Source: Bacillus multifaciens | GTDB lineage: Bacteria > Bacillota > Bacilli > Bacillales > Bacillaceae_G | Direction of reading: 5' to 3' | Length of the DNA: 64,000 nucleotides | NCBI RefSeq assembly: GCF_030756675.1 | Contig: NZ_JAVBXD010000013.1 | Location: 38,401 to 102,400, forward strand | Shown here: piece by piece, positions 13,980-63,741 of the stretch | Position numbering within the stretch: the stretch's first letter is position 1 | Layout of the letters: every line of letters begins with the position of its first letter | The notes under the pieces: generated by a model | Told to the model about the DNA's origin: nothing | Seen by the model: only the letters and a program-made list of their open reading frames with translations | The model's database searches: none | Position numbers and translations under genes: made by a program

Positions 13980-14119
13980 GTGTTGAACGTGGTAGATTCC
14001 TTTCTTGACACGCTGTTTTTGTCGTTCATTGACCGTTTCTATGCGTGGCCAGATGCTCTCGCCTGCCTAAAAAAAGAGGGTTTTTATATCGATTTTTTAA
14101 TTTGTATTTATATAGTTTA
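13980..14119 (-). repeat. Dispersed stem-loop repeat, copy A (antisense orientation)
   Basis: Contains the complement of the conserved core CTGGCCnCGCATAGAAACGGTCA, then AAAAGAGGGTTTTTAT and a terminal GTATTTATATAG. It belongs to the family also found at 28867, 34975, 47525, 53952, 54130, 56352, 56518 and 63537. This is the only copy not in the sense direction of the gene in front of it. Confidence 0.75.
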
Positions 14120-14228
14120 TATTTCATTATCTGAATTTCACCAACTATTAATCAGTTGCCTTCTTATTTAAAAACGACTACAATTTTATTGTTATATAAG
14201 AACGAAAAAAAAGAATCGGAGGGGAACT

Positions 14229-15422
14229 ATGCCAAGGAAAGTATGGCTATTAGTAGCCGGGATGATTATTAATGTCACGGGTGCTTCTTTTTTATGGCCT
14301 TTTAATACAATTTACTTACATGATCATTTAGGAAAGTCATTATCTGTGGCTGGAATGGTATTAATGATTAACTCGTTAACCGGAGTAATTGGTAATTTAC
14401 TCGGCGGTGTTTTATTTGATAAGTGGGGCGGATATAAGTCGATTTTAGTTGGAATTGTGATTACATTATTAGCGATTTTAGGTCTTGTATTTTTCCATGG
14501 CTGGCCATTTTATATTATTTGGCTTGCGTTAATTGGATTTGGTTCTGGAATGGTCTTCCCGGCGATGTATGCGATGGTCGGAACGGTTTGGCCAGAAGGC
14601 GGCCGAAGAGCATTTAATGCGATGTACGTTGGACAAAATGTTGGGATCGCTGTTGGAACGGCGTGCGGTGGTTTAGTTGCCTCTTATCGCTTCGATTACA
14701 TTTTCTTAGCGAACTTTATTTTATACTTTATTTTCTTCTTAATTGCTTTTATTGGATTCCGAGGTATGGAAGATAAGAAAGAAAAACGTGTAGCGGTAAA
14801 AGAAAAGACGAAAAACGGTTGGTCACTTACACCAGGATTCAAGGCGCTTCTTATTGTGTGTGTTGCATATGCTTTATGCTGGGTTACGTATGTACAGTGG
14901 CAAGGGGCGATTGCGACGCATATGCAGGAGCTGAATATTAGTCTTCGCCATTATAGTTTATTATGGACGATCAACGGGGCGATGATTGTTTGTGCACAGC
15001 CGTTAATCAGTATGATTATTCGCGCGATGAAACGTTCTTTAAAACAACAAATTATGATCGGAATTGGTATTTTCGCAGTGTCGTTTATCGTGTTAAGTCA
15101 AGCGCAGCAATTTACAATGTTCCTTGTCGCGATGGTGACATTAACAATTGGTGAATTATTTGTTTGGCCAGCTGTGCCAACGATTGCGAATATCCTTGCA
15201 CCAAAAGATAAGCTTGGCTTTTATCAAGGTGTTGTAAATAGTGCAGCGACTGTTGGAAAAATGTTTGGACCGGTTGTTGGCGGAGCAATTGTTGATTTAT
15301 ATAATATGGAAGTATTATTTATCGCGATCATGGTCATGCTTGTAATAGCAATTATCGCAACGAGTATGTATGATAAGAAAGTACGTGTTGAAGAAACAGT
15401 AGACGAAAAAATTGCAGTTTAG
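14229..15422 (+). CDS. yttB: MFS transporter, YttB-like
   Basis: 397 residues with 12 predicted membrane helices. The MFS A-motif lies between helices 2 and 3 (GNLLGGVLFDKWGGYKS). There is a basic central loop (EDKKEKRVAVKEKTKNG, about 180-196) and a second half-motif later. It lies just upstream of leuS, as does yttB in B. subtilis, which supports the ortholog call. Members are predicted drug or sugar exporters; substrate unknown. ATCGGAGGGG precedes ATG 14229. Confidence 0.82.
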   Translation: MPRKVWLLVAGMIINVTGASFLWPFNTIYLHDHLGKSLSVAGMVLMINSLTGVIGNLLGGVLFDKWGGYKSILVGIVITLLAILGLVFFHGWPFYIIWLALIGFGSGMVFPAMYAMVGTVWPEGGRRAFNAMYVGQNVGIAVGTACGGLVASYRFDYIFLANFILYFIFFLIAFIGFRGMEDKKEKRVAVKEKTKNGWSLTPGFKALLIVCVAYALCWVTYVQWQGAIATHMQELNISLRHYSLLWTINGAMIVCAQPLISMIIRAMKRSLKQQIMIGIGIFAVSFIVLSQAQQFTMFLVAMVTLTIGELFVWPAVPTIANILAPKDKLGFYQGVVNSAATVGKMFGPVVGGAIVDLYNMEVLFIAIMVMLVIAIIATSMYDKKVRVEETVDEKIAV

Positions 15423-15484
15423 TTTGACGGAACATGTAACTTGTTTTAGAATATATTTTAAATAACTCATATGTAATAACAGTG

Positions 15485-15743
15485 AGAAGGAGTAGTAGTA
15501 ATAGAAACTGGTTTAGAGAATTGACGGTCGGTGCAAGTCAATCCACGTTTCGTTATGAACTCGCCTTTGAGTTGCAGTTGTGAAACAAAGTAGCAATTGC
15601 CGTCCATCCACGTTACGGATCTAAGCGAATGTATATTAGTGCTTGTTCAAAAAGGAGGATAAAGAAATCGGATAGCGATCTTTACCGGACGTTTTGAACA
15701 TCCTTTATTACATTAATTTAGGGTGGTACCGCGGGAATCTATA
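15485..15743 (+). promoter_or_regulatory. T-box riboswitch (leucine) of leuS
   Basis: The leader has the T-box core AGGGTGGTACCGCGG at 15720-15734 (pairs with the uncharged tRNA CCA end), the Stem I apical hairpin ATTGAC ... GTCAAT with GGTCGGTG, and a GAACTCGCCTTTGAG specifier region in which CTC (15560-15562) is the likely leucine codon. Low charged tRNA-Leu should stabilise the antiterminator and raise leuS expression. The class is certain from the core; the specifier placement is my reading of the fold. Confidence 0.93.
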
Positions 15744-15778
15744 ACCTCTCGTCCCTTTTCTGGGATGAGGGGTTTTTT
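15744..15778 (+). terminator. T-box terminator
   Basis: CCTCTCGTCCC / GGGATGAGGGG stem followed by TTTTTT. It is mutually exclusive with the antiterminator that includes the T-box core just upstream. Confidence 0.92.
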
Positions 15779-15825
15779 GTATTTTTGGCGGTGAAAATAT
15801 ATAGAATTTGAATGGAGGGTATTTC

Positions 15826-18234
15826 ATGAGCTTCAATCATCAAGAAATTGAAAAGAAGTGGCAAGCGTATTGGGAAGAAAATAAAACATTCCGTACGCCA
15901 GATGAAACAGAAAAACCAAAATTTTACGCACTAGATATGTTCCCATATCCATCAGGTGCAGGGCTGCACGTAGGACATCCAGAAGGATATACAGCAACGG
16001 ACATTTTATCTCGTATGAAACGTATGCAAGGCTATAACGTTCTTCATCCGATGGGATGGGATGCATTCGGTCTTCCAGCTGAGCAATATGCACTTGATAC
16101 TGGAAACAGCCCAGCTGAATTTACAGAGAAAAACATTAACACGTTCCGTAACCAAATTAAAGCATTAGGCTTCTCTTATGATTGGGACCGTGAAGTAAAT
16201 ACAACAGATCCAAACTACTACAAGTGGACGCAATGGATCTTCTTACAGCTATTTGAAAAAGGATTAGCTTACGTAGATGAAATCCCTGTAAACTGGTGCC
16301 CAGCACTTGGTACAGTACTTGCGAACGAAGAAGTAATCGATGGCGTGAGTGAGCGCGGCGGACATCCTGTTGAACGTCGTCCGATGAAACAATGGATGCT
16401 GAAAATCACTGCATATGCAGATCGTCTTCTAGAAGACTTAGATGAACTTGACTGGCCAGAGAGCCTAAAAGATATGCAGCGCAACTGGATTGGCCGTTCT
16501 GAAGGTGCTGAGGTTCACTTCAAAATTGACGGTACAGATGAGAAATTTACTGTATTTACAACGCGTCCAGATACATTATTCGGTGCAACGTACTGTGTAC
16601 TTGCTCCAGAACACGCGCTTGTTGCAGAAATTACAACAGCAGAGCAAAAAGAAGCAGTGGAAGCGTACATTGATTCTGTAAAAGCGAAAAGTGATTTAGA
16701 GCGTACAGAACTTGCGAAAGAAAAAACCGGTGTATTCACTGGTGCTTATGCAGTTAACCCAGTAAACGGTGAGAAATTACCAATCTGGATCGCTGACTAT
16801 GTACTTGCTACTTACGGAACAGGTGCTGTAATGGCAGTTCCAGCTCATGATGAGCGCGATTACGAATTTGCAAAAACATTTGCCCTTCCTATGAAAGAAG
16901 TTGTAAAAGGCGGAGACATCACAAAAGAAGCACATACGGATGATGGCGAACACGTAAACTCTGCATTTCTAGATGGTTTAAATAAAGAAGAAGCAATTGT
17001 AAAAATGATTGAGTGGCTTGAAGTAACAAGTGCAGGAAATCAAAAAGTAACATACCGTCTTCGTGACTGGTTATTCAGCCGTCAACGTTACTGGGGAGAG
17101 CCAATCCCAGTTATCCATTGGGAAGATGGCACAATGACAGCTGTGAAAGAAGAAGAATTACCATTAGTTCTTCCAAAAACAGAGAACATTCGTCCATCTG
17201 GTACAGGAGAATCTCCACTTGCAAACATCGAAGAGTGGGTAAATGTTGTCGATCCTGAGACTGGTAAAAAAGGTCGTCGTGAAACAAACACAATGCCGCA
17301 ATGGGCAGGTAGCTGCTGGTATTACCTACGTTACATGGATCCAAACAACAGCGAAGCACTTGTAGATCCTGAAAAAGTAAAACAATGGCTTCCAGTTGAT
17401 ATTTATATCGGTGGTGCAGAGCATGCAGTACTTCACTTACTATATGCACGCTTCTGGCATAAAGTATTATATGATATCGGTGTGGTTCCAACGAAAGAGC
17501 CATTCCAACAACTATTTAACCAAGGTATGATTTTAGGAGAAAACAACGAGAAAATGAGTAAATCAAAAGGTAACGTTGTAAATCCTGATGATATCGTAGC
17601 AAGTCATGGTGCAGATACACTTCGTCTATACGAAATGTTCATGGGGCCATTAGATGCTTCGATTGCTTGGTCTGAAAATGGCCTTGACGGAGCACGTCGT
17701 TTCTTAGATCGTGTATGGCGTCTATTTGTTCAAGACAATGGTGAACTAAGTGAGAAAATTACAGATGCACCAAACAAAAATCTTGAAAAAGTATATCACC
17801 AAACAGTGAAGAAAGTAACGGAAGATTATGCAGAGCTGCGCTTTAACACGGCAATTTCTCAAATGATGATGTTTATTAACGATGCATATAAAGCAGAAAC
17901 ACTTCCGAAAGAATATGTAGAAGGTTTCGTGAAAATGATTGCACCAGTTGCACCGCACGTTGCGGAAGAACTTTGGAGCAAGCTTGGATATAGCGAAACA
18001 ATTTCATATGCAAGCTGGCCAACATTTGATGAGTCTAAACTTGTAGAAGACGAAGTGGAAATCGTTGTTCAAGTCATGGGTAAAGTACGTGCGAAGTTAA
18101 CAATGAAAAAAGACGCATCAAAAGAAGAAATGGAACAACTTGCACTTGAAGCAATTAAAGAACAAATTAAAGGGAAAACAGTTCGTAAAGTAATTGTTGT
18201 TCCTGGAAAACTTGTAAATATCGTAGCGAACTAA
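15826..18234 (+). CDS. leuS: Leucyl-tRNA synthetase
   Basis: 802 residues, class I synthetase of the bacterial LeuRS type. HIGH motif in [17 protein letters not shown] (about 42-58), CP1 editing domain with the [12 protein letters not shown] threonine-rich motif (about 247-258), KMSKS motif ([10 protein letters not shown], about 575-585) and a C-terminal anticodon-binding region ending GKLVNIVAN. It charges tRNA-Leu and edits mischarged products. ATG 15826 is preceded by ATGGAGGG; an upstream ATG at 15808 has no such site. It is controlled by the T-box leader. Confidence 0.98.
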
Positions 18235-18237
18235 TGA

Positions 18238-18615: not shown

Positions 18616-18637
18616 AATGTAAAATTTATCAACTATG

Positions 18638-18854: not shown

Positions 18855-18985
18855 TTCATATATCGGCGATTTTTAGCATATATCGACCGTTTTTCATCAT
18901 ATATCGGCGACTTTTAAGATATATCGGCGACTTTTAAGATATATCGGCGCTTCGACACAACATAAAGACCCCTCGACAATAAATG
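18855..18985. repeat. Tandem ATATATCGGCG-type repeat, locus 2
   Basis: Five to six units of about 19-20 nt (CATATATCGGCGATTTTTAG, CATATATCGACCGTTTTTCA, then GATATATCGGCGACTTTTAA twice), ending in the CGACACAACATAAAGACCCC variant. The two adjacent identical units show recent local duplication. Confidence 0.82.
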
Positions 18986-19696: not shown

Positions 19697-19800
19697 GGTG
19701 CCACCTCATTTATAATTCTTACCTTTTAGTATATGGAATGAAATGTACTATGAAAAGCCATTTTGCGTTTGATCCTCTTTCAAATTAAGAGGAGTTTTTA

Positions 19801-19914
19801 GGTTCATCACCGTAACATGGGGTTGATTTTTTGAAAATGAATCATTTTTAATACACCACTCGGAGTGGAGTGTGCATCTATCTATATGTCACCCCCGTCT
19901 TTTGGTGATGAACC
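19801..19914. mobile_element. 114-bp MITE, ISL3-like ends, copy 1
   Basis: Perfect 11-bp terminal inverted repeats (GGTTCATCACC / GGTGATGAACC), with weaker pairing to about 26 bp. It is flanked by an exact 8-bp target duplication AGTTTTTA (19793-19800 and 19915-19922). It has no coding capacity, so transposase must have acted in trans; 8-bp duplications fit ISL3-family elements. The right duplication includes the gerIC stop codon (19920-19922). The ends are identical to the 210-bp copy at 44096. Confidence 0.92.
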
Positions 19915-19919
19915 AGTTT

Positions 19920-21026
19920 TTATTCAATAACTCCTGAATTTGTAATATCAACCTCATATTGTACTTTTACCGGAACATCTTTGTACATTTTTCTCCATTC
20001 TTTTAATTGAAATGGTCTGTAGTGCTCTTTAAATTTGGCACCTAAAGCAAGTGAGTCTGCACCTAGAGATTGAAGTTTTTTAACTAATTTTGCACCATCT
20101 GTATTCAAGTTCTTTACGACATCTTTTCGTATTATTTCTACATTTTTTTTATTTTCTAAGTTCGTATGTTTTGAAATCTCTTGAATACGCGCTGCCATTT
20201 TTACGCGAATAACAAAGGAAGGTTTTCCGTCCTTTACATGTACATGATAAGAAGGGGAAGAACGAATATTGTTAATGATCGTATAGCCTAACTTTGTTTT
20301 AAACTCATGGGAATCCAGTTGGCTTTTCTCGAGCAGCGTTTTGAAAAGAAACATATCTTTTTCTTCTACTTTTCCGACATATTTATCTTGTTTGAAAAGA
20401 GCAATACTTGTAACTTTAATGCTATTCTTTTTTTTCTTTAATATAGGCATATACGTATCTTGTCCGTCACGATAATATCGGAAAGTTTGCATGTATAAAT
20501 TATCGTTTGGTAAGAGACCTGTTTTCATATTATGTTCCAGCATTTTTTTGATGTAAATTGCTACGTTAGAAGCAGTGCTGTATTTGCCCGATAAAAGTTT
20601 CTCACCTTCGTTATTACCGCCTCCTTCTAGGATACCGACATATACTAAGTTTCCGATATTTACATCGCGAATAAGTGTATCGAATGCACTAGAGAGCCCT
20701 TTTTTAGCTAATTTTTCTGTGAAAAGAGTAACGCGTATTTGTCCGCTTGCAAGAGGCTGTCCCGATTCTAAAGAGGTTGTTGTTTTCACTTGTTTAATTG
20801 TATTTCCATACCCTTGAAGTACTTGTACTTTATTTCCTTTTCTTTGAATTGGACACACGTAAGTTACTTTTACTCTTCCACGGTCTGAACCCGCATCTGA
20901 AGCGACATCAAAAACAGCACCTTGAATAAGGCTAATATCGTCAATGATATTTTTTGGGACACATGCGGTTGTAAAAAGTAAACATAAGCTAAAAAGGAAT
21001 ATTACTTGTTTCTTAATGTTTTCCAT
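19920..21026 (-). CDS. gerIC: Germinant receptor lipoprotein subunit C (GerI/GerH type)
   Basis: 368 residues of the Ger(x)C family. Hydrophobic signal MENIKKQVIFLFSLCLLF leads to a lipobox-like TTAC (Cys22), so the protein is lipid-anchored on the outside of the spore inner membrane. Family features include GQIRVTLFTEKLAKKGLSS, NLYMQTFRYYRDGQDTY and a C-terminal helical domain (LVKKLQSLGADSLALGAKFKEHYR). The ATG at 21026 overlaps gerIB by 25 nt, implying coupling; an upstream in-frame start at 21083 lies inside gerIB. The MITE sits directly after the stop. Confidence 0.9.
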   Translation of the reverse strand: MENIKKQVIFLFSLCLLFTTACVPKNIIDDISLIQGAVFDVASDAGSDRGRVKVTYVCPIQRKGNKVQVLQGYGNTIKQVKTTTSLESGQPLASGQIRVTLFTEKLAKKGLSSAFDTLIRDVNIGNLVYVGILEGGGNNEGEKLLSGKYSTASNVAIYIKKMLEHNMKTGLLPNDNLYMQTFRYYRDGQDTYMPILKKKKNSIKVTSIALFKQDKYVGKVEEKDMFLFKTLLEKSQLDSHEFKTKLGYTIINNIRSSPSYHVHVKDGKPSFVIRVKMAARIQEISKHTNLENKKNVEIIRKDVVKNLNTDGAKLVKKLQSLGADSLALGAKFKEHYRPFQLKEWRKMYKDVPVKVQYEVDITNSGVIE

Positions 21027-22112: not shown

Positions 22113-23954
22113 TTATTCATCGAAATCTGTCATACGTTTTTTAGACACTTCTTTTACATAACGACTAACATGTTGTGGTCTTTCTTGAACCCCGCGCGTA
22201 GTTATTTTAGATAAGGGCATTCGTACGAAGGCGTCTTTTGCTAACTGTTTGCGAAATGGATAAACAAATGCATACGGTTTTCGAAGAGATGATAATCGAA
22301 AAAGCCGTGTTAATAGAATGATAAATCCTAGCGAAATTCCTAATAATCCCCATAACTCGGCAAGTATGAGAAAGGGGAAGCGAAGTAAACGAATAGCATT
22401 TCCCATTTTATAAATCGGTGTAATAAACGATGCAAGTGCAGATAGGGCGACGATGATTAATAAAATATTACTTGTTAATCCCGCTTGGACTGATGCCTGT
22501 CCGATAACGATACCGCCTACAATACCGAGCGTCTGCCCGACCTTCATCGGTAATCGGGCTCCTGCTTCGCGGAGAAGATCAATAGCTAACTCCAGAAAAA
22601 TAGCCTCTATGATAGGTGGAAATGGTACTTGTGCCCGCGATAAAATCAATGTCTCAAGCAAGTCACTTGGAATTAATTCATAGTGATAACTAAGCACGGC
22701 TACATATAGGGGCGTTGCACAAATGGAAAACGTAACTGCGACAAGACGTAATAAACGGGAAAACGTTGCATAAAACCATGACACGCTGTAATCTTCTGGA
22801 GAGATAAAGAAATCCAGTAGAGATACAGGTGATAATAAAACATTTGGCGAGCCATCAACAAATATAGCAATTTTGCCATCAATGAGCCCGTTGCTGACAC
22901 GATCAGCCCGTTCTGTATTAATAAATGTTGGAAAAATAGATGTATTGCCCATTAGCTGGGGAATATAATAGCTATCATTAATTTGCTCATATTGAATTGT
23001 GTTTAAGGTATCTTCTAAATATGTAACGTTTTCTTTTTCTGCTACATTACTCAAATACATGATAACAACTTTTGTTTTGGAGAATTCTCCAATTAACAGT
23101 TCTTTCGTTTTCAATTCAAGAACTGGCAACCGTTTTCGAACAAGGTTTATGTTTGTATCGATATCCTCTACAAATCCTTCTTGCGGTCCGATAACTGTTG
23201 ATTCGTTCAATGGGATAGTCGGTAATCTATATTTTTCAATTGCAATGTTTGCAAGTAGGCATTCCGTATCATGCTCATGTAGTTGAATGATAGCATGCCC
23301 TTTTAAAACCATTTCTTCAATTTTTTTCACGTCACTTGTAATGATGAGTCCGCTTATTGGAACCATTGCCTTTATTTCTTCTAGTGTTTGTGCAGTATGG
23401 TGCAATAAAGCAGGCATTAAATAATTTTGTAATCTCATCCCATCCATTGACGTACGAAAAAATGAGATCCAATAAGGTTTAGCTGGGTCGTCAGAAGTTT
23501 GATAGCGAACAAAATCGCTTGATTCTCGTAATTTTTTGATAAGCTCTTGTAGTGAATGCGCAGTTTCATGCTCTGGTTTACTAAAGTCAAAAATGCCGTT
23601 TTGACTTTGCTTTGATTGTTGATTCGTTGTAGTTTGCTTGTTTGCTTGAGTTTGCTGTTGATTTGCTTGCTGCTTGTTTGTCTGCTGTTTGTTGTTTTGA
23701 GCCTGCTGTTGGTTTGCTTGTTGTTTGTTGTTTTGAGCTTGTTGCTTGTTTGTCTGCTGTTTGTTGTTTTGAGCCTGCTGTTGGTTTGCTTGTTGTTTGT
23801 TGTTTTGAGCTTGTTGCTGATTTTCCTGCTGCTTGTTCGTTTGCGCTACTTGATTACTGTTTGTTTGTTCATTTTGTTTCTTTTTCGTATCTGTATTGTT
23901 CTTTTCTACTTGCTTATTATCGTTCTTCTTTTTGTGAAACCATTTGAAAAACAT
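22113..23954 (-). CDS. gerIA: Germinant receptor subunit A with Gln/Asn-rich repeat N-terminus
   Basis: 613 residues from ATG 23954 (AAGAGGGAATACAT upstream). The N-terminus is a basic start (MFFKWFHKKKNDNKQ), then about 100 residues made of Q, N, K, A and T with a 12/24-residue repeat. The GerA-family domain follows: a cytoplasmic region, then membrane helices (about 395-560) with VLSYHYELIPSDLLETLILSR and GARLPMKVGQTLGIVGGIVIGQ. A repeat-bearing N-terminus is characteristic of GerIA/GerHA in the B. cereus group (inosine receptor). The frame extends upstream to 24275 without start signals; I exclude that part. Confidence 0.9.
   Translation of the reverse strand: MFFKWFHKKKNDNKQVEKNNTDTKKKQNEQTNSNQVAQTNKQQENQQQAQNNKQQANQQQAQNNKQQTNKQQAQNNKQQANQQQAQNNKQQTNKQQANQQQTQANKQTTTNQQSKQSQNGIFDFSKPEHETAHSLQELIKKLRESSDFVRYQTSDDPAKPYWISFFRTSMDGMRLQNYLMPALLHHTAQTLEEIKAMVPISGLIITSDVKKIEEMVLKGHAIIQLHEHDTECLLANIAIEKYRLPTIPLNESTVIGPQEGFVEDIDTNINLVRKRLPVLELKTKELLIGEFSKTKVVIMYLSNVAEKENVTYLEDTLNTIQYEQINDSYYIPQLMGNTSIFPTFINTERADRVSNGLIDGKIAIFVDGSPNVLLSPVSLLDFFISPEDYSVSWFYATFSRLLRLVAVTFSICATPLYVAVLSYHYELIPSDLLETLILSRAQVPFPPIIEAIFLELAIDLLREAGARLPMKVGQTLGIVGGIVIGQASVQAGLTSNILLIIVALSALASFITPIYKMGNAIRLLRFPFLILAELWGLLGISLGFIILLTRLFRLSSLRKPYAFVYPFRKQLAKDAFVRMPLSKITTRGVQERPQHVSRYVKEVSKKRMTDFDE
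23671..23814. repeat. In-frame 72-bp tandem repeat (VNTR) in gerIA
   Basis: Two 72-bp units (starting 23671 and 23743), each made of two similar 36-bp halves, encode a 24-residue repeat rich in Gln and Asn (NKQQAQNNKQQANQQQAQNN). Being a multiple of three, copy-number change keeps the frame, so length variation between strains is expected. Confidence 0.85.
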
Positions 23955-28866: not shown

Positions 28867-29065
28867 TATATAAATCCATTTTGACTTTTCGACATATAGA
28901 TTGCTGCTATGCAGAAAAAAAGATTTTGCTACTTTCTTTCTCCTTTTGTTTGAACTTCGCATGTGGAAGAAAAAGGCCCTGCCCGCTTTTACACATGGCC
29001 AGACGTTCTCGCCCACCCAAAAAGAAAAGGCTTTTTATGTCGTTTTTTTAATTAGGATTTACATA
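28867..29065 (-). repeat. Dispersed stem-loop repeat, copy B, inside narGHJI
   Basis: Ends TATATAAATCC (28867) and GGATTTACATA (29065) are inverted relative to each other. The core is the complement of CTGGCCATGTGTAAAAGCGGG. It lies between narJ and narI and supplies the last codons and stop of narJ. It is transcribed in the sense direction of the operon. Confidence 0.8.
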
Positions 29066-29593
29066 GTTTATTTCATACTGCCATGCACGAATAGCTGTAA
29101 GGATGCATCGGACAATTGGTTCGTGCATACTGTTTGTGTCTTGTAATTGTTGATGCAATGCTTCAATATTGCTTTCATATTTTTTCATAATCGGTTCACT
29201 ATCTTCTTCACCAGCATTTGCGAGAAACTCTAACATAAGCGGTAAATAATCAGGCAGTTCTTTATCTGTTACAGCGAGGCCTGCTTTTTGATAGTGTTGT
29301 TTAAGTTCTAGTAGTTCAATCCCTCGTTCTCGTTGTTCACCAGTATTCATATAAGTGAGATACATATTTGTTTTTTTGCCAAAATCAAATGTATATACAA
29401 ATGATTGAATTAATTCATCGCTTGTTTTTTGCTTTGCTTGTTCGATAAATGTTGTAAGGATAGTGCGAATTTCCTCATGTTCGATAGTTTGAATATCACT
29501 TTGTAAATGAGTAAGCGCTTCTCTCCATCCCTGTTCAGGATAGGAGAGAAGAAAGGAAGAACAAGAGAAAGCTGTTTGTAAACTTTGATTCAT
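29048..29593 (-). CDS. narJ: Nitrate reductase assembly chaperone
   Basis: 181 residues of the NarJ/TorD family, all-helical: FLLSYPEQGWREAL near the N-terminus and the family motif PDYLPLMLEFLA (about 115-126). It inserts the molybdenum cofactor into NarG before the complex docks on NarI. The ribosome site is GGAGGTAAC before ATG 29593, 19 bp after narH. Its last residues (about YVNPN) are encoded within repeat copy B, so the native C-terminus was replaced or trimmed. Confidence 0.93.
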   Translation of the reverse strand: MNQSLQTAFSCSSFLLSYPEQGWREALTHLQSDIQTIEHEEIRTILTTFIEQAKQKTSDELIQSFVYTFDFGKKTNMYLTYMNTGEQRERGIELLELKQHYQKAGLAVTDKELPDYLPLMLEFLANAGEEDSEPIMKKYESNIEALHQQLQDTNSMHEPIVRCILTAIRAWQYEINYVNPN

Positions 29594-34910: not shown

Positions 34911-34974
34911 TCGTAAAATATGTTTTGTATGTAAAGTAGGGGGGAGAAAGAAAAAAGAGCAGCATCCTCAATCA

Positions 34975-35172
34975 TATATCCATTTTAAATTTCCGACACA
35001 TAAGCTGCTGCTATGCAGAATAAAACATGATTGCTACATGCGTGCTCCCTTTGTTTGAAACCTCGCAATGTGGCAGGAGAAGGCTCTGACCGCTTCTATG
35101 CACGGCCAGATGCTCTCGTCCCTCCTTAAAAAGAAAAGGGTTTTTATGTCGGTTTTTTAACTTGTATATATA
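34975..35172 (-). repeat. Dispersed stem-loop repeat, copy C, after fnr
   Basis: Carries the complement of CTGGCCGTGCATAGAAGCGGTCA and of AGGCATG-type flanks, ending GTATATATAG five bases before the fnr stop codon. It lies between fnr and the narG promoter in the sense direction of fnr. Confidence 0.78.
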
Positions 35173-35177
35173 GAATG

Positions 35178-35870
35178 CTACTCAATACTACAAATAGAAG
35201 TAGGGCAATCTTCACAAGCGATTGCACATTTTAAAAAGTGTAAATTATGGATGGTAATCTTGCCTTTATGAATAGAAATAATGTCTTGTTTCTTTAAATC
35301 ATTTAACATGCGATTGACACTTTCACGGGAGGTTGCACAGAAGTTTGCAAGTTCTTGATTCGTTAATGGCAGATCGATAAGAATGCCATCTTCTTTTAAA
35401 ATGCCATAACTATTCGTCATGCGAATGAGAGTGGAATAGAGTGCTCCCTTTTTGCCGTGCAATACTAAATCACGAAACTTCGTTTGCATTCTTCGTAAAT
35501 GTTCACTAACCCACTTCATAAATTCAAAGGCAAGAGCTGGTTTTTCCAGCAATGCTTTTTCTAATGCATCCCGCTTAATGACGCCGATTTCTGCATGTTC
35601 AAGCACTTTTGCATTCAATAAATATTTGGCGTTTTCCGTAAAGAGTGTAAGTTCCCCAATAATATCATTCTCCGAACAAATGCGTAGTGTCAATTCTTGA
35701 CCGTCGGCGCTAATCTTACTAATTTGCACTTTTCCCGAGTGAATAATATATAGTTCTTTTGCCTCCATACCTTCTTGGAAAATATAATGGGCTTTGCTCA
35801 CTTGCATTTTATATTCAACAGATGCGAGTAATTCTTTTAAATCATTTGATAATGCAGTACTGTTTGCCAC
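35178..35870 (-). CDS. fnr: Fnr, oxygen-sensing CRP-family activator
   Basis: 230 residues: cyclic-nucleotide-binding-type beta barrel (FQEGMEAKELYIIHSGKVQI), long dimer helix, helix-turn-helix LTNQELANFCATSRESVNRML, and a C-terminal cluster CAIACEDCPTSIC. The C-x2-C-x4-C spacing (Cys219, 222, 227) matches the Bacillus-type [4Fe-4S] Fnr, where an Asp (here perhaps Asp134) is the fourth ligand; an extra Cys215 is present. I choose GTG 35870 with AAGGGGTGA upstream over GTG 35879. It activates nar and moa genes when oxygen is low. Confidence 0.95.
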   Translation of the reverse strand: MANSTALSNDLKELLASVEYKMQVSKAHYIFQEGMEAKELYIIHSGKVQISKISADGQELTLRICSENDIIGELTLFTENAKYLLNAKVLEHAEIGVIKRDALEKALLEKPALAFEFMKWVSEHLRRMQTKFRDLVLHGKKGALYSTLIRMTNSYGILKEDGILIDLPLTNQELANFCATSRESVNRMLNDLKKQDIISIHKGKITIHNLHFLKCAIACEDCPTSICSIE

Positions 35871-36010
35871 AGCAGTCACCCCTTTTTTCCGAATAGTCTA
35901 TTTCTTATTTTGAATATAAATATAGTGAAAATGCAAGCGTTTTTTTCCTTTTCCGAATTGTGAACAGTTTTTGAACACATTTGTGAAGAATTTTCGAATG
36001 AGGAAATTGA

Positions 36011-44003: not shown

Positions 44004-44095
44004 TCATATAGCTAGGATCTCTAGTTTTAATATGGATATTGAATCATACTCTACAAACCTTTATTATGAATATATTGGATGTTATGTATTATTTT

Positions 44096-44305
44096 GGTTC
44101 ATCACCGTAACATGGGGTTGATTTTTTGAAAATGAATCATTTTTATTAATACACTTCACTGTGAGTGGCGACTCCTGCCGGAATAGCGAGGAAAGTGAGA
44201 CCCCGCAGGCTTGCCGAGGAGGCTCGCTCTCGCCCGCGGAAAGCGTCCACTCGGAGTGGAGTATACATCTATCTATATGTCACCCCCGTCTTTTGGTGAT
44301 GAACC
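44096..44305. mobile_element. 210-bp MITE, ISL3-like ends, copy 2
   Basis: Same 11-bp inverted ends as the element at 19801, flanked by an exact 8-bp duplication ATTATTTT (44088-44095 and 44306-44313). The outer about 50 bp on each side match copy 1. The centre carries an extra GC-rich palindromic block of about 93 bp (GTGAGTGGCGACTCCTGCCG ... CCCGCGGAAAGCGTCCACTC) that resembles a recurrent Bacillaceae intergenic unit. A frame at 44161-44427 inside it is not a gene. Confidence 0.93.
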
Positions 44306-44399
44306 ATTATTTTGAAGTTTTTTATTTTTTGACATATCAATTGCAGAATTTGCGTTGGCTTTTATGTCAGTTATCTATACATAGTAAAGGTGGATTTAC

Positions 44400-47510: not shown

Positions 47511-47524
47511 TGGTTACTCAGTTA

Positions 47525-47708
47525 CTTTATGAAAAACCGACAGAAAAGCATTTTTTTAAATGGGCGAGAGGGACTAGCCATGCATAGAAGCGGTCAGGAC
47601 CTTTTCCTGCCACGTGCAAGGTTTGAAAACAAAAGTAGACAATAAGTACAGGCCCCTACCCTTGTTCGCATGACAGCAGTCTATATGCCAAAAAATGAAT
47701 TTACAAGT
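47525..47708 (+). repeat. Dispersed stem-loop repeat, copy D
   Basis: Starts about 15 bp after the DHFR-like stop with GAAAAACCGACAGAAAAGCA. It carries the core CTAGCCATGCATAGAAGCGG then TCAGGACCTTTTCCTGCCACGTGC and ends GAATTTACAAGTA. In copy D the 5' stem arm is partly mutated. Confidence 0.78.
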
Positions 47709-53230: not shown

Positions 53231-53959
53231 ATGAGATTAGATAAATTATTAGCAAACATGGGCCATGGTAGCCGTAAAGAAGTGAAAAAACTATTAAAGG
53301 ACGGCGTTGTCAAAATAGATGGCGTATCAGTGAAAGATGCAAAATATCATGTGAACGTAGAAGAACAAGAAGTTACGATTCACGGTGAAGTAGTGGAGTA
53401 TAAAGAATTTGTATACTTAATGATGCATAAACCACAAGGGGTCATTTCTGCAACAGAAGATGACAATCATGAAACAGTTATTGATTTATTAGAAATGGAA
53501 GATGCGATTTTTGATCCGTTTCCAGTGGGAAGACTTGATATCGATACAGAAGGTTTTCTTTTATTAACGAATGACGGAAAGTTAACGCATCAACTTCTTT
53601 CTCCGAAAAAGCACGTTCCGAAAAAATACTTTGCAAGAGTAGCTGGAAAAGTGACAGAAGAAGATGTTGCTGCGTTCAAAAAAGGCGTTATTCTAGATGA
53701 TGGATATGAAACAAAACCAGGTGAGCTAACAATTCTCCAAAGCGATGACGTGTCTGAAATTGAACTTGTTATTACAGAAGGTAAGTTTCATCAAGTAAAG
53801 CGCATGTTTGAAGCAGTAGGGAAAAAGGTTGTGTACTTAAAACGCACAGAGATGGGTCCTTTAGTATTAGATGAGGAACTAGAGCTTGGACAGTACCGTG
53901 AATTAACAGACGAAGAAGTAGAGATGCTGAAATCCTATCATACTCAAATAGAAATATAA
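53231..53959 (+). CDS. ytzG: 16S/23S rRNA pseudouridine synthase, RsuA/RluB family (YtzG)
   Basis: 242 residues: N-terminal S4 RNA-binding domain (RLDKLLANMGHGSRKEVKKL), catalytic domain with VGRLDIDTEGFLLLTNDG (catalytic Asp in RLD, about 104-106) and EGKFHQVKRMFEAVGKKV. It converts a uridine in ribosomal RNA; the exact position is not deducible. The ribosome site is AGCAGGTGAAACG before ATG 53231. A stem-loop repeat begins at its stop codon. Confidence 0.9.
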   Translation: MRLDKLLANMGHGSRKEVKKLLKDGVVKIDGVSVKDAKYHVNVEEQEVTIHGEVVEYKEFVYLMMHKPQGVISATEDDNHETVIDLLEMEDAIFDPFPVGRLDIDTEGFLLLTNDGKLTHQLLSPKKHVPKKYFARVAGKVTEEDVAAFKKGVILDDGYETKPGELTILQSDDVSEIELVITEGKFHQVKRMFEAVGKKVVYLKRTEMGPLVLDEELELGQYRELTDEEVEMLKSYHTQIEI

Positions 53960-54118
53960 GTTGAAAAAAGAACATAAAAACCCTCTTTTTTAAGGTGGGA
54001 GAGAGGTCCTGGTGATGCATAGAAGCGGTCAGGGCCTTTTTTTTGCTACGTACGATGTTAAAACAGAGAGATGAAACGAGAGCAGGTCACTTTATGTTTT
54101 CGATAGTGGTGAATTAGC
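53952..54118 (+). repeat. Dispersed stem-loop repeat, copy E
   Basis: Begins AATATAAGTTG at the ytzG stop codon and carries CTGGTGATGCATAGAAGCGG then TCAGGGCC at 54009-54036. It is followed about 10 bp later by copy F, so this is a tandem pair. Confidence 0.8.
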
Positions 54119-54129
54119 GGTTGAGAATA

Positions 54130-54286
54130 GAATAGACAAGTGTAAAAACGCTCTTTTTTAGATGAGAGGGAGGTTCTGGCCGTGCATAGAAGCGGTCAGG
54201 TTCTTTTTTTGCTACGTGCGAAGGTAAAATATAGAGGGAAAACGAGTAGAAATCACTTTTTGTTTTGGCTAGCACAGATTTATATC
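54130..54286 (+). repeat. Dispersed stem-loop repeat, copy F
   Basis: Core CTGGCCGTGCATAGAAGCGG then TCAGG at about 54175-54199, and the end AGATTTATAT. Head-to-tail with copy E, with clearly different sequence outside the core, so the pair is not a recent duplication. Confidence 0.8.
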
Positions 54287-54298
54287 ATAATCAAAAAG

Positions 54299-54330
54299 AC
54301 CCCCATTCTTCTATTAAGAATGGGGGTATG
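54299..54330. terminator. Terminator between the E/F repeats and ytzE
   Basis: ACCCCCATTCTT / AAGAATGGGGGT, 5-nt loop; A-run before it acts as T-run for the minus-strand gene ytzE. Confidence 0.8.
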
Positions 54331-54939: not shown

Positions 54940-56346
54940 ATGACAAATATAAATTGGATGCAAGAAGTAGAGAAACGAAAAGATGCTCTTATTCATGATG
55001 TACAGCAATTTTTACAAATTAAAAGTGTATGGGAAGAAGAAACAGCAAAAGAAGGTGCACCGTTTGGAGAAGGTGTAGCAAAAGCATTATCTTTCATGTT
55101 AGATAAGGGAGAGACTGATGGATTTCTTTCTAAAAATTTAGAGGGATATGCAGGGCATTTAGAGATGGGACAAGGAGAAGAAATTGTTGGTATTTTATGT
55201 CATGTTGATGTAGTACCAGAAGGAGACGGCTGGACGACGCCTGCATATAGCGCGGATATTCGCGACGGTAAAATCTTTGCACGCGGTGCGATTGATGATA
55301 AAGGTCCAACAATGGCAGCTTACTATGCAATGAAAATTGTAAAAGAATTAGGATTGCCTCTTTCGAAACGCGTTCGCATGATTTTAGGAACGGATGAAGA
55401 AAGTAACTGGAAGTGTGTAGACCATTACTTTAAACACGAAGAAATGCCAACAATGGGATTTGCTCCAGATGCAGATTTTCCAATTATTAATGCGGAAAAA
55501 GGAATTTGCGATTTATATGTAGTTCAAAATAAAAAGGAACATACAGCAGGAGAAAATGTATTAGTATCCTTCTCATCCGGGCGCCGATTAAATATGGTTC
55601 CTGATTTCGCAGAAGCTGTCCTAACGAGCGAAAAAGCAACAGAACTTGCAAGTCAGTATGAACAATATATACAAGAAGCAAAGAAAAACGGGAAAGCAAT
55701 TGTGGAAGGAAATACAATCAAACTGCAAGTAGAAGGGATTTCGGCACACGGTTCTACGCCGGAACAAGGAGAAAATGCAGGTTTAACACTTGTGAATTTC
55801 TTAACGACAATCTCTTTAGATGAGCAAGGTGGGGCATTTGCTAGCTTAGCTGCGGAAACATTTACAAATGATACGCTTGGAGAAAAAGCCGGCATTGCGT
55901 ATGCAGATGAGATTACAGGTCCATTAACAGTAAACGTTGGTCTTCTTTCTTATACAAAAGAAGAAGGCGGTAAACTTGGATTGAATATTCGCTATCCAGT
56001 TACAACAAACCTAGAAGGAACGCTGCAAACATTAACAAATTATGTGAATGCAAAAGACTTTGCTATCACAAATGTATCAGATTCTCGTCCGCATCATGTT
56101 GATAAAGATCATGTATTAATTCGTACACTTCAGCGTGTATACGAAGAGCAAACAGGAGAAAAAGCCGAGTTGTTAGCAATTGGCGGCGGTACATATGCAC
56201 GTTCATTGAAAGCTGGGGTTGCGTTCGGTCCGCTATTCCCAGGGAAAGAAGAATTAGCACATCAAAAAGATGAGTATATCGAAATTGAAGATTTACTGAA
56301 AGCAACAGCGATTTATGCACATGCAATTTATGAATTAGCGAAATAG
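54940..56346 (+). CDS. pepV: Dipeptidase PepV (M20)
   Basis: 468 residues, M20A metallopeptidase of the PepV type. Zinc-ligand segments GILCHVDVVPEGDGW, ARGAIDDKGPTMAAYY, LGTDEESNWKCVDHYF and DADFPIINAEKG are all present, with the dimerisation-like insert and a final GGGTYARSLK. It hydrolyses dipeptides in the cytoplasm. GAAGAAGGTGGAAGT precedes ATG 54940. Same neighbourhood as in B. subtilis. Confidence 0.94.
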   Translation: MTNINWMQEVEKRKDALIHDVQQFLQIKSVWEEETAKEGAPFGEGVAKALSFMLDKGETDGFLSKNLEGYAGHLEMGQGEEIVGILCHVDVVPEGDGWTTPAYSADIRDGKIFARGAIDDKGPTMAAYYAMKIVKELGLPLSKRVRMILGTDEESNWKCVDHYFKHEEMPTMGFAPDADFPIINAEKGICDLYVVQNKKEHTAGENVLVSFSSGRRLNMVPDFAEAVLTSEKATELASQYEQYIQEAKKNGKAIVEGNTIKLQVEGISAHGSTPEQGENAGLTLVNFLTTISLDEQGGAFASLAAETFTNDTLGEKAGIAYADEITGPLTVNVGLLSYTKEEGGKLGLNIRYPVTTNLEGTLQTLTNYVNAKDFAITNVSDSRPHHVDKDHVLIRTLQRVYEEQTGEKAELLAIGGGTYARSLKAGVAFGPLFPGKEELAHQKDEYIEIEDLLKATAIYAHAIYELAK

Positions 56347-56351: not shown

Positions 56352-56515
56352 TGGAAATGAAAAACCAAAAAACCGTTCTTTTTTAGGTGGCGAGAGGAAC
56401 TGGCGATGCGTAGAGGCGGTCAGGGCCTATTCCTGCCACGTGCCGTGTGGAAACAAAGAGAGAAAACAAGCGTAGGGCATATTTTATTTTCCTTACCGGC
56501 GGCAGATGTACCGAA
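56352..56515 (+). repeat. Dispersed stem-loop repeat, copy G
   Basis: Starts about 6 bp after the pepV stop. Core CTGGCGATGCGTAGAGGCGG then TCAGGGCCTATTCCTGCCACGTGC. Tandem with copy H. Confidence 0.8.
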
Positions 56516-56517
56516 AA

Positions 56518-56672
56518 GAATATTAAAACCTTTATTTTTAAGGGAGGCGAGAGGGACTGACCGTGCATAGAAACGGTCAGGGCCTATTCCTGCCACGTGC
56601 TGTGCGAAAACAAAGATAGGAAACGAGTGCGAGGTCACTTTGTGTTTTCCGTACAGGCGATTTATGTGTTGA
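56518..56672 (+). repeat. Dispersed stem-loop repeat, copy H
   Basis: Core CTGACCGTGCATAGAAACGG then TCAGGGCCTATTCCTGCCACGTGC. The 7-bp stem CTGACCG/CGGTCAG is perfect here, making it the best template of the family. It ends GGCGATTTATGTG. Confidence 0.82.
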
Positions 56673-56709
56673 ACAATCGAACTTTCATTAGTGAAGTAAA
56701 CAATGGACG

Positions 56710-56741
56710 AACCGCTCTCGATAAGGAGAGCGGCTTCTTTC
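56710..56741 (+). terminator. Terminator before thpR
   Basis: CCGCTCTC / GAGAGCGG, 6-nt loop, followed by CTTCTTT. It ends transcripts from the pepV/repeat region. Confidence 0.7.
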
Positions 56742-59664: not shown

Positions 59665-59708
59665 AAAGTAAAAGAGTGAGCAGCTTGTTTGTTTTTTCAC
59701 TTTTACTT
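59665..59708 (+). terminator. Hairpin after pulA
   Basis: AAGTAAAAGAGTGA / TCACTTTTACTT, imperfect long stem with T-rich loop, between pulA and ytmP. Confidence 0.55.
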
Positions 59709-59806
59709 ACATTGAAGCAGAATGAATGGAAACCCAGGGCATATGTTTGGAAATGTTGTGGTTTTTCTTTTCATAACTATAAAAGATAAGGATTTGTTAA
59801 CGGGTA

Positions 59807-60604: not shown

Positions 60605-60605
60605 G

Positions 60606-60884: not shown

Positions 60885-60940
60885 TTTAACACATCCTTTT
60901 CAGTTGTTATCGTAACAATGAAACGAGCGTAACGAACCGC

Positions 60941-60980
60941 TGATGGAAATTGTATTTTATACACTTTGTAGTTTCCATCA
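60941..60980 (+). other. Inverted repeat in the trmB leader
   Basis: TGATGGAAA / TTTCCATCA around a 22-nt A/T-rich loop, in the region between ytzH and trmB. It could be a leader hairpin or an operator. A smaller GTTGTTA/TAACAAT stem lies at 60903-60919. Confidence 0.4.
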
Positions 60981-61081
60981 AAATAGTAAATTTTATACTT
61001 GAAAGAAACGGACCGAGTGCTCGTACGTACTTGGTTTTTTATATGATACACACATCTTGGAGTGCAGAGAGGGAGAGAACT

Positions 61082-61735
61082 ATGCGTTTAAGACATAAAC
61101 CATATGCAATGGACCGAACGAAAGAATATTCACAGTTTGTAATTGGAAATCCAGAAGAGAGTAACGGAAAATGGAACGAGTTATTTGGAAATGACAACCC
61201 GATTCACATTGAAGTTGGAACAGGCCGCGGCCGCTTCATGTACGAAATGGCAAAAGCAAATCCAAACGTAAACTATATTGGAATTGAAAAATTCACAAGT
61301 GTAATTGTAGATGCACTTGATAAATTAATTGAAGAACCATTGTCGAACTTAAAACTAATTAATAAAGATGCAGAAGATTTAACAGTATTCTTTGCGGAGA
61401 ATGAAATTGATCGCGTATATTTAAACTTCTCTGATCCATGGCCAAAGAATCGTCATGAAAAGCGTCGTTTAACGTATAAAACATTTTTACGTAACTATGA
61501 AACAGTACTTGTAAAAGGCGGGGAAATTCATTTCAAAACAGATAACCAAGCTTTATTTGAATACTCTCTTACAAGTATGGCGGAATATGGCATGCTGCTG
61601 CCTTATATTAGCTTAGATCTTCACAAAAGTGACTTCGAAGGAAACATTATGACGGAATACGAAGAAAAATTCTCAAGCAAGGGAAATCGTATTTACCGCG
61701 TTGAAGGAAAATATCGTACAGAACCTGCGCAATAA
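61082..61735 (+). CDS. trmB: tRNA (guanine46-N7)-methyltransferase
   Basis: 217 residues. SAM-binding motif [17 protein letters not shown] (about 41-57), then [18 protein letters not shown] and the TrmB signature [16 protein letters not shown] (about 118-133), [13 protein letters not shown]. It methylates G46 of tRNA. ATG 61082 follows GAGGGAGAGAACT; the frame to 60950 is not used. Confidence 0.95.
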
Positions 61736-61750
61736 TGCGCGGGTTTTTTA
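61722..61750 (+). terminator. trmB terminator
   Basis: AACCTGCGCA / TGCGCGGGTTTTTT with a 4-nt loop, overlapping the stop codon. Confidence 0.85.
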
Positions 61751-61753
61751 TTA

Positions 61754-62104
61754 TTACAAAGTATCGGGAAGGTTCACCCATATTACCGCACCCATTGGAT
61801 GTTTGTATGGTATTGGTTCTTTCAATGGAGTTGGATTTTGGAAAATCCAAGCATGTGTGTACTTGTACGGTTCTTGAAGACAATTTTGGGCTGGTACTTT
61901 ATGAAATGATTCACTTTGTTGATATTCTTCAAGACTTAATTTCTTGCTATCTATTAAATCAACAGTTCCAAATACCATTCCACTGCCACTTTTAATAAGA
62001 GCTATTTTTCCTCGTATCTTCGTGTTAGCTCCTCTTATTTCCCAAGTTTTTTTACCTTCTAAAATTAGCTCAATCCAAGGTGATCTAATGATGAGACCTT
62101 TCAT
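61754..62104 (-). CDS. ASCH-domain protein
   Basis: 116 residues, single ASCH (PUA-like) domain: KGLIIRSPWIELILEGKKTW then EIRGANTKIRGKIALIKSGS, with the conserved GKKTWEIR motif, and a terminal YKHPMGAVIWVNL. ASCH proteins bind RNA or act as amidohydrolases on acetylated nucleosides. ATG 62104 has AGGTGGTGGC upstream; GTG 62119 is possible. It converges on trmB. Confidence 0.85.
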   Translation of the reverse strand: MKGLIIRSPWIELILEGKKTWEIRGANTKIRGKIALIKSGSGMVFGTVDLIDSKKLSLEEYQQSESFHKVPAQNCLQEPYKYTHAWIFQNPTPLKEPIPYKHPMGAVIWVNLPDTL

Positions 62105-62212
62105 TGTTTGTGCCACCACCTAATAATTAATAACTATATTTTACCACGAATAGAGGAGTGTAATAGAAAAGAAAAAAGCTGCCACAAAGTCTAGCTTCGT
62201 GACAACTTCTTG

Positions 62213-62420
62213 AAAGGATAAAGAAAGAGCGGGAGCAGCACAAGAATGTCAATGAAAGTTAAAAAGGTTTTAAAAACTTAATTTTCAGAAAACTTATAAG
62301 CTTAAGGGTTTTTCGCTACTCTTTCTTTATTAATTAAGAGTTTAGCATTAAAAATAAAATAAATCAACGAAAAATAGACAATTTTCTTTAAAATTCGACA
62401 TTTTTAATAATTGATCTAAG
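62213..62420 (+). repeat. Roughly 200-nt structured repeat, copy 2 (upstream of the S66 gene)
   Basis: AAAGAAAGAGCGGGAGCAGC ... ACTTAATTTTCAGAAAACTT ... AAGGGTTTTTCGCTACTCTTTCTTT, then TTAAAAATAAAATAAATCAA and TTCGACATTTTT. It aligns almost throughout with 3771-3990. An imperfect AAGCTGCCACAAAG / CTTCGTGACAACTT hairpin precedes it (62175-62207). Confidence 0.6.
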
Positions 62421-62503
62421 AACACTTCTATTAATTTCATGTATCTAGGAAGTTAGGTTATAGTAAAGAAATATCATATATGTTTATATAGGAGTGAAAA
62501 GAA

Positions 62504-63487
62504 GTGTTTCAGTTAAACAAAGGAGATCAAATAGGAGTTTTTTCACCATCATTACCAGGTACATATACATCACCTACTAGATTCGAGCGTTCAAAACAAT
62601 TTATGGAAAGTAAAGGATTTATTATCGTTGAAGGAAGTCTTACTAGAAAGTGTGATGGTTATCGATCTGGGAGTATAAAAGATCGTGCTCAAGAGGTGAA
62701 CGAATTCATTTGGAATCGAGAAATTAAGTGTATGATGTCGTCTGTTGGAGGAAGCAATTCGAATTCGTTACTTCCTTATTTAGACTACGAAGCAATAAAA
62801 AAACATCCGAAAATTTTCGTTGGGTATTCTGATGTCACTGCCATTTTATTAGGTATTTATGCGAAAACAGGTATGACAACATTTTATGGCCCGTCCTTAA
62901 TTTCATCATTGGGAGAATTTCCTCCATATGTAAATAATACATTTTCATCATTTGAAGATGTGTTAATAAAAAATGCAGCACTTCCATATGAGTATCCTGT
63001 ATATCCTGTTTGGACAGATGAGCAATTAAATTGGCAGACACAAAATCGGCCGAAAGCAAGTTATCCGAATGAATGGGTTTGCGTCAAAGAAGGCGTCGCA
63101 ACTGGTCGGTTAATAGCTGGGAATTTAATGACGATATTAAGTATATGGGGAAGTCCTTATATGCCTGTTATTCATGAGGGAGATATTTTAATGATCGAGG
63201 ACTGTAAAAAAACAGCAGCGATCGTTGAAAAGCATTTTAGTTTCTTGAAAATAAACGGTGTATTTGAAAAGATTGGCGGGATCATCTTAGGAAAACATGA
63301 ACAATTTGACGATCAAGGAATAGGGTTGACACCATATGATATTTTGCTCGAAGTAATCGGAGACACAGATATTCCAATCTTAGCTGATTTTGATTGTTGT
63401 CACACACATCCGATTGTTACAATGCCTATTGGCGGAACGATTGAATTAAATGCAACGCAGAAGACGGTTCGGATTTTGGAGTTTTAA
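62504..63487 (+). CDS. S66-family peptidase (MccF / LD-carboxypeptidase-like)
   Basis: 327 residues. Nucleophile Ser109 in the FVGYSDVTA elbow, region AGNLMTILSIWGSPYMP (catalytic Glu region) and His in CCHTHPIVTMP complete the S66 Ser-His-Glu pattern. MccF members cleave microcin C-like aminoacyl nucleotides; LdcA members cleave muropeptides. The sequence is closer to MccF by length and motifs, with immunity or self-defence as possible role (inference). GTG 62504 follows TATAGGAGTGAAAAGAA. Confidence 0.87.
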   Translation: MFQLNKGDQIGVFSPSLPGTYTSPTRFERSKQFMESKGFIIVEGSLTRKCDGYRSGSIKDRAQEVNEFIWNREIKCMMSSVGGSNSNSLLPYLDYEAIKKHPKIFVGYSDVTAILLGIYAKTGMTTFYGPSLISSLGEFPPYVNNTFSSFEDVLIKNAALPYEYPVYPVWTDEQLNWQTQNRPKASYPNEWVCVKEGVATGRLIAGNLMTILSIWGSPYMPVIHEGDILMIEDCKKTAAIVEKHFSFLKINGVFEKIGGIILGKHEQFDDQGIGLTPYDILLEVIGDTDIPILADFDCCHTHPIVTMPIGGTIELNATQKTVRILEF

Positions 63488-63536
63488 GGAGCTTGCATTG
63501 ATAGTAGAAAACATAGGAGAAAATTTAGGGAAGCTT

Positions 63537-63741
63537 ATATATAAATACAAATTGAAAAACCGACATAAAAACCCCCTTTTTTTAGGGGAGGGAGAGAGCG
63601 TCTGACTGTTCATAGGAGCGGTCAGGACCTTTTCCTGCCACATGCCAGGTTTGAAACAAAAGGAGCAGACCAGTAGCCGGGCATGGTGTATTCTGCATAG
63701 TTGCGATTTGTGTGTTAAAAAATCAAAGTGGATTTATATAT
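63537..63741 (+). repeat. Dispersed stem-loop repeat, copy I
   Basis: About 50 bp after the S66 stop. The ends TATATAAATACAAATTG and CAAAGTGGATTTATATA are clear inverted repeats, the best preserved termini of the family. Core CTGACTGTTCATAGGAGCGG then TCAGGACCTTTTCCTGCCACATGC. The frame at 63642-63926 is not a gene. Confidence 0.82.

Follow-up and report, generated by a model that had tools for sequence, protein, structure and literature searches.

The 64,000-nucleotide stretch of Bacillus multifaciens DNA analysed here (the window; contig NZ_JAVBXD010000013.1, positions 38,401 to 102,400) carries nine copies of a short repeat, c1 to c9, which we interpret, with a probability of roughly 80%, as a miniature inverted-repeat transposable element (MITE) that was likely spread by an IS630-type transposase at TA dinucleotides, that lies mostly behind genes in the sense direction, and that is predicted to form a weak terminator hairpin. 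Three DNA profiles, one of them trained on these nine copies, recovered every repeat that an earlier note on this DNA had listed and no tenth, the weakest with an E-value of 1.1e-19. In the window, the CCTTTTCCTGCCACGTGC block matched five times at no more than three mismatches against 0.03 expected, and the left terminal repeat matched four times at the same threshold against none in shuffles. Copies c1 to c3 are on the minus strand and c4 to c9 on the plus strand.

Copy c1 (14030..14114, minus) consists of the left end and the stem only, being cut off after the stem beside a C-terminal remnant of an IS1595-type transposase (13902..14028, minus), a likely bystander whose family was judged by eye. 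The full-length copy c2 (28867..29065, minus) lies between narJ (29048-29593, minus) and narI, with the narJ stop codon inside its left end, and the nearly full-length c3 (34972..35174, minus) begins 3 bp behind the stop codon of a Crp/Fnr-type gene (35178-35879, minus); the gene following c3 is narG by position and length only. On the plus strand, c4 (47521..47698) follows the stop codon (47510) of a RibD_C-domain gene at a distance of 10 bp, the left end of c5 (53953..54124) extends into the last part of a gene for a pseudouridine synthase (53231-53959), and c6 (54137..54290) follows c5 in tandem. Both c5 and c6 contain a terminator-like hairpin in which a run of eight or seven T, respectively, comes after the stem itself (54005..54044, plus, -13.5 kcal/mol; 54172..54210, plus, -13.6 kcal/mol), and behind this pair is a strong hairpin (54299..54327, minus) whose terminator score is confined to the minus strand. 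Copies c7 (56352..56517, plus) and c8 (56515..56679, plus) form another tandem behind pepV (54940-56346; stop at 56346); c8 has the exact CTGACCG/CGGTCAG stem, and an intrinsic-terminator-like hairpin (56712..56733, plus) lies behind the two. The full-length c9 (63538..63740, plus), located 50 bp beyond the stop codon (63487) of an S66 peptidase gene, possesses both terminal inverted repeats, the left at 63538..63566 (plus; TATATAAATACAAATTGAAAAACCGACAT) and the right, read inwards, at 63709..63740 (minus; TATATAAATCCACTTTG...). Both ends were present by pattern in c2 and c9, the right end of c3 was recognised by eye only, and the ends of c4 to c8 have decayed.

The placement that the earlier note had described was borne out for most copies. 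Eight of the nine (c2 to c9) share the orientation of the gene in front of them, c1 being the exception, and six (c2, c3, c4, c5, c7 and c9) start near a stop codon, at distances ranging from 18 bp inside the gene to 50 bp behind it. As second copies behind c5 and c7, c6 and c8 are 177 and 168 bp from the stop. The element's left part not only overlaps the end of the reading frame in c2 and c5 but also supplies its stop codon.

Intact copies start with TATATAA and finish with TTATATA, and their imperfect inverted repeats of approximately 30 bp mostly carry CGACAT at the inner end; in the window, such terminal repeats occur in c2, c3 and c9. The element measures about 155-203 bp, and because most copies with both ends found span 162-201 bp, it is too short for a transposase gene. 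The genomes compared were those of Ectobacillus panaciterrae (G001), E. funiculus (G002), E. antri (G003) and an Ectobacillus congener (G006). At no more than one mismatch, the terminal-repeat pattern was found 72 times in E. panaciterrae (36 + 36), 22 times in E. antri (15 + 7), 7 times in G006 (6 + 1) and not once in E. funiculus, and a reversed control pattern gave no match in any of the four genomes. The element occupies at least 40 places in E. antri. Copies from E. panaciterrae were 73-80% identical to the first part of c9, mostly to its first 108 bp (41 matches; 40 of 90 candidates scored), and 71 of 108 copies from this species formed a subset chosen for having both ends, a length of 175-210 bp and distinct sequences. 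Copies from E. antri and G006 have the ends in common with the others, while their interior is largely different: a word search yielded no interior motif common to all groups, and the frequency of GAAGCGGTCA, with one mismatch allowed, was 93% among 95 copies from E. panaciterrae and 88% among 8 from the window as compared with 2% among 46 from E. antri and G006. The nine repeats look like a MITE-like, gene-free transposable element and not like a conserved RNA gene. Direct tandem copies were seen at loci L125 and L154 as well as in the window at 53953-54290 and 56352-56679; at L125, one copy begins inside the TA-rich end of another, as if the copies themselves were targets.

Evidence for the mode of insertion came from an occupied and an empty version of the same site. 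The empty site in G006 reads CTCCTTT-TA-GTTAT, and its occupied counterpart in E. antri, locus L188, reads CTCCTTC-TA-[TATAAGTAC...GACTTATA]-TA-GTTAT, such that the single TA of the empty site flanks the E. antri insert on both sides and one adjacent base differs. This pair shows insertion at TA, with the TA duplicated, at L188. Duplication of a TA target is a mark of IS630/Tc1-mariner elements, and members of the IS630-type DDE domain family PF13358 were present in all four Ectobacillus genomes searched. An IS630-type element of 1.18 kb in G006 (L262) has the inverted ends TATATAAGTGATTTAATTTTTCGACAT, with 24-nt terminal arms that are 88% complementary; two IS630-type fragments in E. panaciterrae (L264 and L266) have an end of the same type, and an IS630-type element in E. 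funiculus (L261) has the ends CTATATAAGT. The inverted repeats at the ends of L261 and L262 were detected independently of the MITE sequence. When the right ends of c2 and of the E. panaciterrae and E. antri MITEs were compared with the left end of L262, none of 2000 shuffles was as good, and the right end of c9 beat all but 3 of 2000. Judged from these sequence comparisons, the element was likely moved by an IS630-type transposase; since no intact autonomous copy was found, this assignment is likely rather than demonstrated.

Several results weigh against an IS630-type origin. A clean empty site was obtained at one of the three loci tried (L195 gave no clean pair, and at L207 both genomes carried the insert), and this evidence comes from the relatives, E. 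antri and G006, rather than from the window's own lineage. Of 42 comparisons between MITE ends and insertion sequence (IS) ends, only 14 reached a level of 5 or fewer of 2000 shuffles, MITE left ends being mostly weak (501 of 2000 shuffles for the left end of c9 against the left end of L262), and L264 and L266 had been selected because their ends looked alike. An intact IS630 copy with exactly the ends of the MITE was not found in the four Ectobacillus genomes searched: the transposase of G006 is interrupted by one in-frame stop, the three E. panaciterrae matches to PF13358 are partial, and E. funiculus has IS630 yet no MITE. At three E. antri loci (L267, L270 and L272), identical IS630-type ends were observed, each locus stopping within ~90 bp of the end, a pattern that points to an IS630 present in several copies and causing breaks in the draft assembly.

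Other sources of the element were tried and rejected. End pairing within 2.5 kb, used as a search for an autonomous copy, gave a sole long pair (2,118 bp at L150) that encloses a second copy, and there was no PF13358 match on that contig. Nine IS1595-type transposase loci lacked a TATATAA-type end at up to six mismatches, and IS1595 was discarded as a partner. IS1595-type C-terminal remnants, recognised by eye, nonetheless abut truncated MITE copies in the same direction in two species (13902-14028 in the window and L128 in E. panaciterrae), an adjacency that may reflect either coincidence or target preference. With respect to a phage or plasmid origin, c9 had no match in phage and plasmid collections, and pattern scans of viral contigs gave eight loci, of which L081 matched by chance within coding DNA that has nothing to do with the element; a BLAST comparison of c9 with loci including these eight returned only matches of 19 and 26 bases, in two of the eight. 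The element's sequence words had no match in the literature searched.

The direction of copies relative to genes was determined with simple gene calls made by a script; discarding duplicates and shared insertions left 169 of 176 copies, 156 of which had called genes on both sides. The direction bias noticed in the window extended to the relatives within tandem gene pairs and near gene ends, but not as a high plain count of copies reading in the same direction as the gene in front (56 of 99 in E. panaciterrae, 19 of 42 in E. antri and 7 of 14 in G006, versus 7 of 8 in the window, where the script omitted c9 as a window-edge case, yet c9 reads with its front gene). The plain count mixes contexts, because convergent pairs always meet it and divergent pairs always miss it whatever the direction of the copy. 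Between tandem genes, 64 copies were co-directional and 30 opposite (p = 6e-4), or 57 and 29 without the window (p = 0.003). Within 100 bp of a stop codon there were 43 sense and 10 antisense copies (38:10 without the window), and between convergent genes, a setting that controls for replication strand, the end closer to a stop was the left one in 15 cases and the right one in 6 (p = 0.078). Position was compared with an expectation from random TA sites in the same intergenic DNA for the 148 copies outside the window. The enrichment behind stop codons that the window had suggested was absent at close range (17.6% within 50 bp versus 16.6% expected); within 100 bp of stops the figures were 33.1% versus 26.1% expected (p = 0.06), and starts were avoided (8.8% within 50 bp versus 20.9% expected, p = 1e-4). 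We infer that position is accounted for by avoidance of gene starts, as expected under purifying selection. Since the copies share ancestry and gene orientation itself tracks replication, these p-values serve as guides only.

The plain same-direction count, near half in the relatives, is one of several points that weigh against this reading. The tandem-pair bias resides mainly in E. panaciterrae (41:18), the ratio being 14:10 in E. antri (p = 0.54) and 2:1 in G006. Old E. panaciterrae copies looked more biased (13:2) than young ones (21:13), albeit in small numbers. In addition, copies within 100 bp of a start codon were also predominantly sense (24 versus 5 antisense), which fits a terminator role poorly, and the direction bias could follow the replication strand.

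The earlier note had read a conserved stem with changing bases as a sign of RNA function, and this claim was not supported. It is very improbable that the repeat is a conserved structured RNA, a 3'-untranslated region (3'-UTR) element in which selection maintains the seven-base-pair stem. Standard pairs make up 84% of the stem's pair cells in the window as against at most 50% when the stem is slid, c9 and c3 fold better than shuffles (z of -4.5 and -4.6), and the direction bias would also accord with such an RNA; however, no pair in the window is changed on both sides, and the folding of c7 does not exceed that of shuffles (z of 0.50). In 79 aligned copies (the 8 window copies without c1 and the 71 of 108 from E. 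panaciterrae), 55.7% of stem cells pair, a level that shuffles equal, and a single cell shows a double change; of the 76 sequences with letters on both sides, 67 lack the outermost pair and 61 the next one. RNAalifold returned no common structure for these 79 copies, and Rfam gave no match for the repeat in a scan of the window or in a separate scan of c9 only. The strong folding of full copies is partly due to the terminal repeats: with them, the mean z was -4.72 in the window, -1.80 in E. panaciterrae and -1.20 in E. antri and G006, and without them it was -2.09 (two window copies), -0.38 (25 E. panaciterrae copies) and 0.09 (25 copies from E. antri and G006), the Ectobacillus interiors thus folding no better than shuffles. 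What does recur is a hairpin followed by a T-run. At -5 kcal/mol or better, in samples of 9 window, 40 E. panaciterrae and 40 E. antri and G006 copies, it was found on the sense strand in 56% (5 of 9), 68% and 57%, respectively, compared with 14%, 12% and 12% of shuffles, and on this computed basis sense copies are predicted to form a weak terminator hairpin. Antisense, E. panaciterrae copies gave 17% versus 24% in shuffles, and at -8 kcal/mol or better the hairpin was confined to the sense strand in the window and in E. panaciterrae; the 40 best-scoring E. panaciterrae copies gave 39 sense and 2 antisense, the random sample being the fairer figure. A separate terminator scan reported c6 and c9 as terminator-like sites in sense and placed no further plus-strand site in the interval from the gene before c5 to c6. 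These results, the hairpins of c5 and c6 and the sense bias near stops would suit a portable transcription terminator, retained because its sense strand ends transcripts behind genes. We nevertheless regard that explanation as unlikely, since copies show no enrichment near stops relative to random TA sites, c2 sits within the nar operon, another plus-strand terminator-like site stands behind c7/c8, and in E. antri and G006 the two strands are alike at -8 kcal/mol or better (10% and 12%). The strand preference of the hairpin is itself tempered by antisense frequencies at -5 kcal/mol of 44% in the window (21% in shuffles) and 42% in E. antri and G006 (14% in shuffles) and by one antisense terminator-like site in c9 in the separate scan.

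A direction bias without function, in which insertion or survival is tied to the direction of replication that genes also follow, is possible, if somewhat doubtful. The pneumococcal repeats BOX, RUP and SPRITE are reported to follow the bias of coding sequences at 60.8-63.3% (PMC3049150), a range near the 68% measured here for tandem pairs; on the other hand, the bias is stronger within 100 bp of stops (43:10) than in tandem pairs overall (64:30), and convergent pairs lean the same way. The chances are nearly even that the element is a repeat already described in B. cereus, namely bcr1, bcr2 or bcr3 of the MITE-like group A. Four protein clusters share 96-97% identity with the PepV protein of the window; they carry the names B. 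pseudomycoides, B. cytotoxicus, B. thuringiensis and Bacillus sp. FJAT-53711 / B. yunxiaonensis, and thus the labels of B. cereus group species. Among the best 120 of 1473 matches, identity was mostly 79-85% to other B. cereus group proteins and 70-73% to Ectobacillus-labelled ones. The PepV identities suggest that the window derives from an early-diverging lineage of the B. cereus group or from the nearest kin of that group. The four clusters (P0001-P0004) bear different species labels, some of which are probably mistaken. The closest genome loci, among the best 80, were from Ectobacillus species (69-74%), and none of them was named as a B. cereus group species. The bcr elements are 100-400 bp long, mostly chromosomal and associated with TTTAT (PMC6542083), bcr1-3 are termed MITE-like and often lie in UTRs (PMC3446304), and, like the window's element, they are intergenic repeats of the same bacterial group (PMC3446304, PMC6542083, PMC8725734); here, the right ends of c2 and c9 read GGATTTATATA and contain TTTAT, which is inverted at the left end of c9. 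The resemblance to bcr repeats that the earlier note had drawn thus stands as a likeness to the MITE-like kind, but not for the confinement with which bcr1 is described: bcr1 is reported as restricted to the B. cereus group (PMC6542083), whereas the present family abounds in Ectobacillus, with TA duplication and IS630-type ends. Moreover, nine copies in 64 kb are denser than a mean of 39 bcr1 copies per strain would give, and no plasmid match was obtained, in a collection that may not include B. cereus group plasmids, though some bcr1 copies are on plasmids (PMC6542083). MITE-like bcr1-3 is likely the local name for the window's element, the two being likened by description and not by a bcr consensus.

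The closest parallel to the MITE in the window is RUP of pneumococcus (Streptococcus pneumoniae), a short multi-copy repeat whose ends resemble those of the resident IS630-Spn1 and which is bunched with other repeats (PMC3049150, PMC10969869). It differs in length (~107 bp versus ~155-203 bp here) and, judged without alignment, in sequence, and in that the window family has a direction bias measured against neighbouring genes. SPRITE of S. pneumoniae is likewise interspersed, with a hairpin and a U-rich tract, and is often near gene 3' ends (PMC3049150, PMC10969869), but its duplex is 18 bp long and no IS with similar ends is reported as found, while the hairpin of the window family varies by lineage and an IS630 partner is indicated. 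Nezha, Correia/NEMIS and ERIC are bacterial MITEs able to alter mRNA fate when transcribed, ERIC doing so in one orientation (PMC3733652, PMC3049150); they have other hosts and partners and are likened to the window family by description, not by sequence. Copies of bcr are found in mRNA at 50.9% and 40.0% in two strains, and bcr3 goes with a longer mRNA half-life (PMC3446304), which makes a 3'-UTR effect plausible here, though unproven.

The window contains other repeats and features as well. A second repeat pair (19797-19921 and 44092-44312), 92-94% alike in two blocks and with the ends GGTTCATCACC...GGTGATGAACC, looks like another MITE family. Repeats of ATATATCGACCG / ATATATCGGCG units occur at 7357-7444, 18858-18945 and 63815-63902, the outer two being 91% alike, and a 71-bp repeat (3892-3962 and 62335-62405) is 89% alike between its two positions. 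A T-box leader (15473-15759; Rfam RF00230, 136 bits) precedes a leucyl-tRNA synthetase gene, and a repeat with a period of 36 nt (23598-23849) lies within a GerA-type spore germination gene.

For the MITE, the course of events that we propose is that an IS630-type transposase would move the gene-free element in trans, inserting it at TA, and that antisense copies may be lost by selection. Sense copies behind genes would become part of the mRNA, where they may affect transcription termination or mRNA stability, and a 3'-UTR role could follow from the sites at which copies persist. It is decidedly unlikely, in our estimate, that the IS630-borne family goes further and is a self-spreading, strand-specific 3'-end module, in which the interior has diverged, a sense hairpin and U-tract recur, and copies survive mainly when transcribed behind a gene. 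The stem calls for caution, in that a neat stem in nine copies failed the comparison with 71 relatives. A repeat that had appeared RNA-like becomes a transposon-like element for which a transposase family and a target site are indicated, and its direction bias is measurable and traceable across Bacillus and Ectobacillus. If the window's element is bcr1-like, the MITE-like bcr repeats would gain an IS630-type mode of movement and would extend beyond the B. cereus group.

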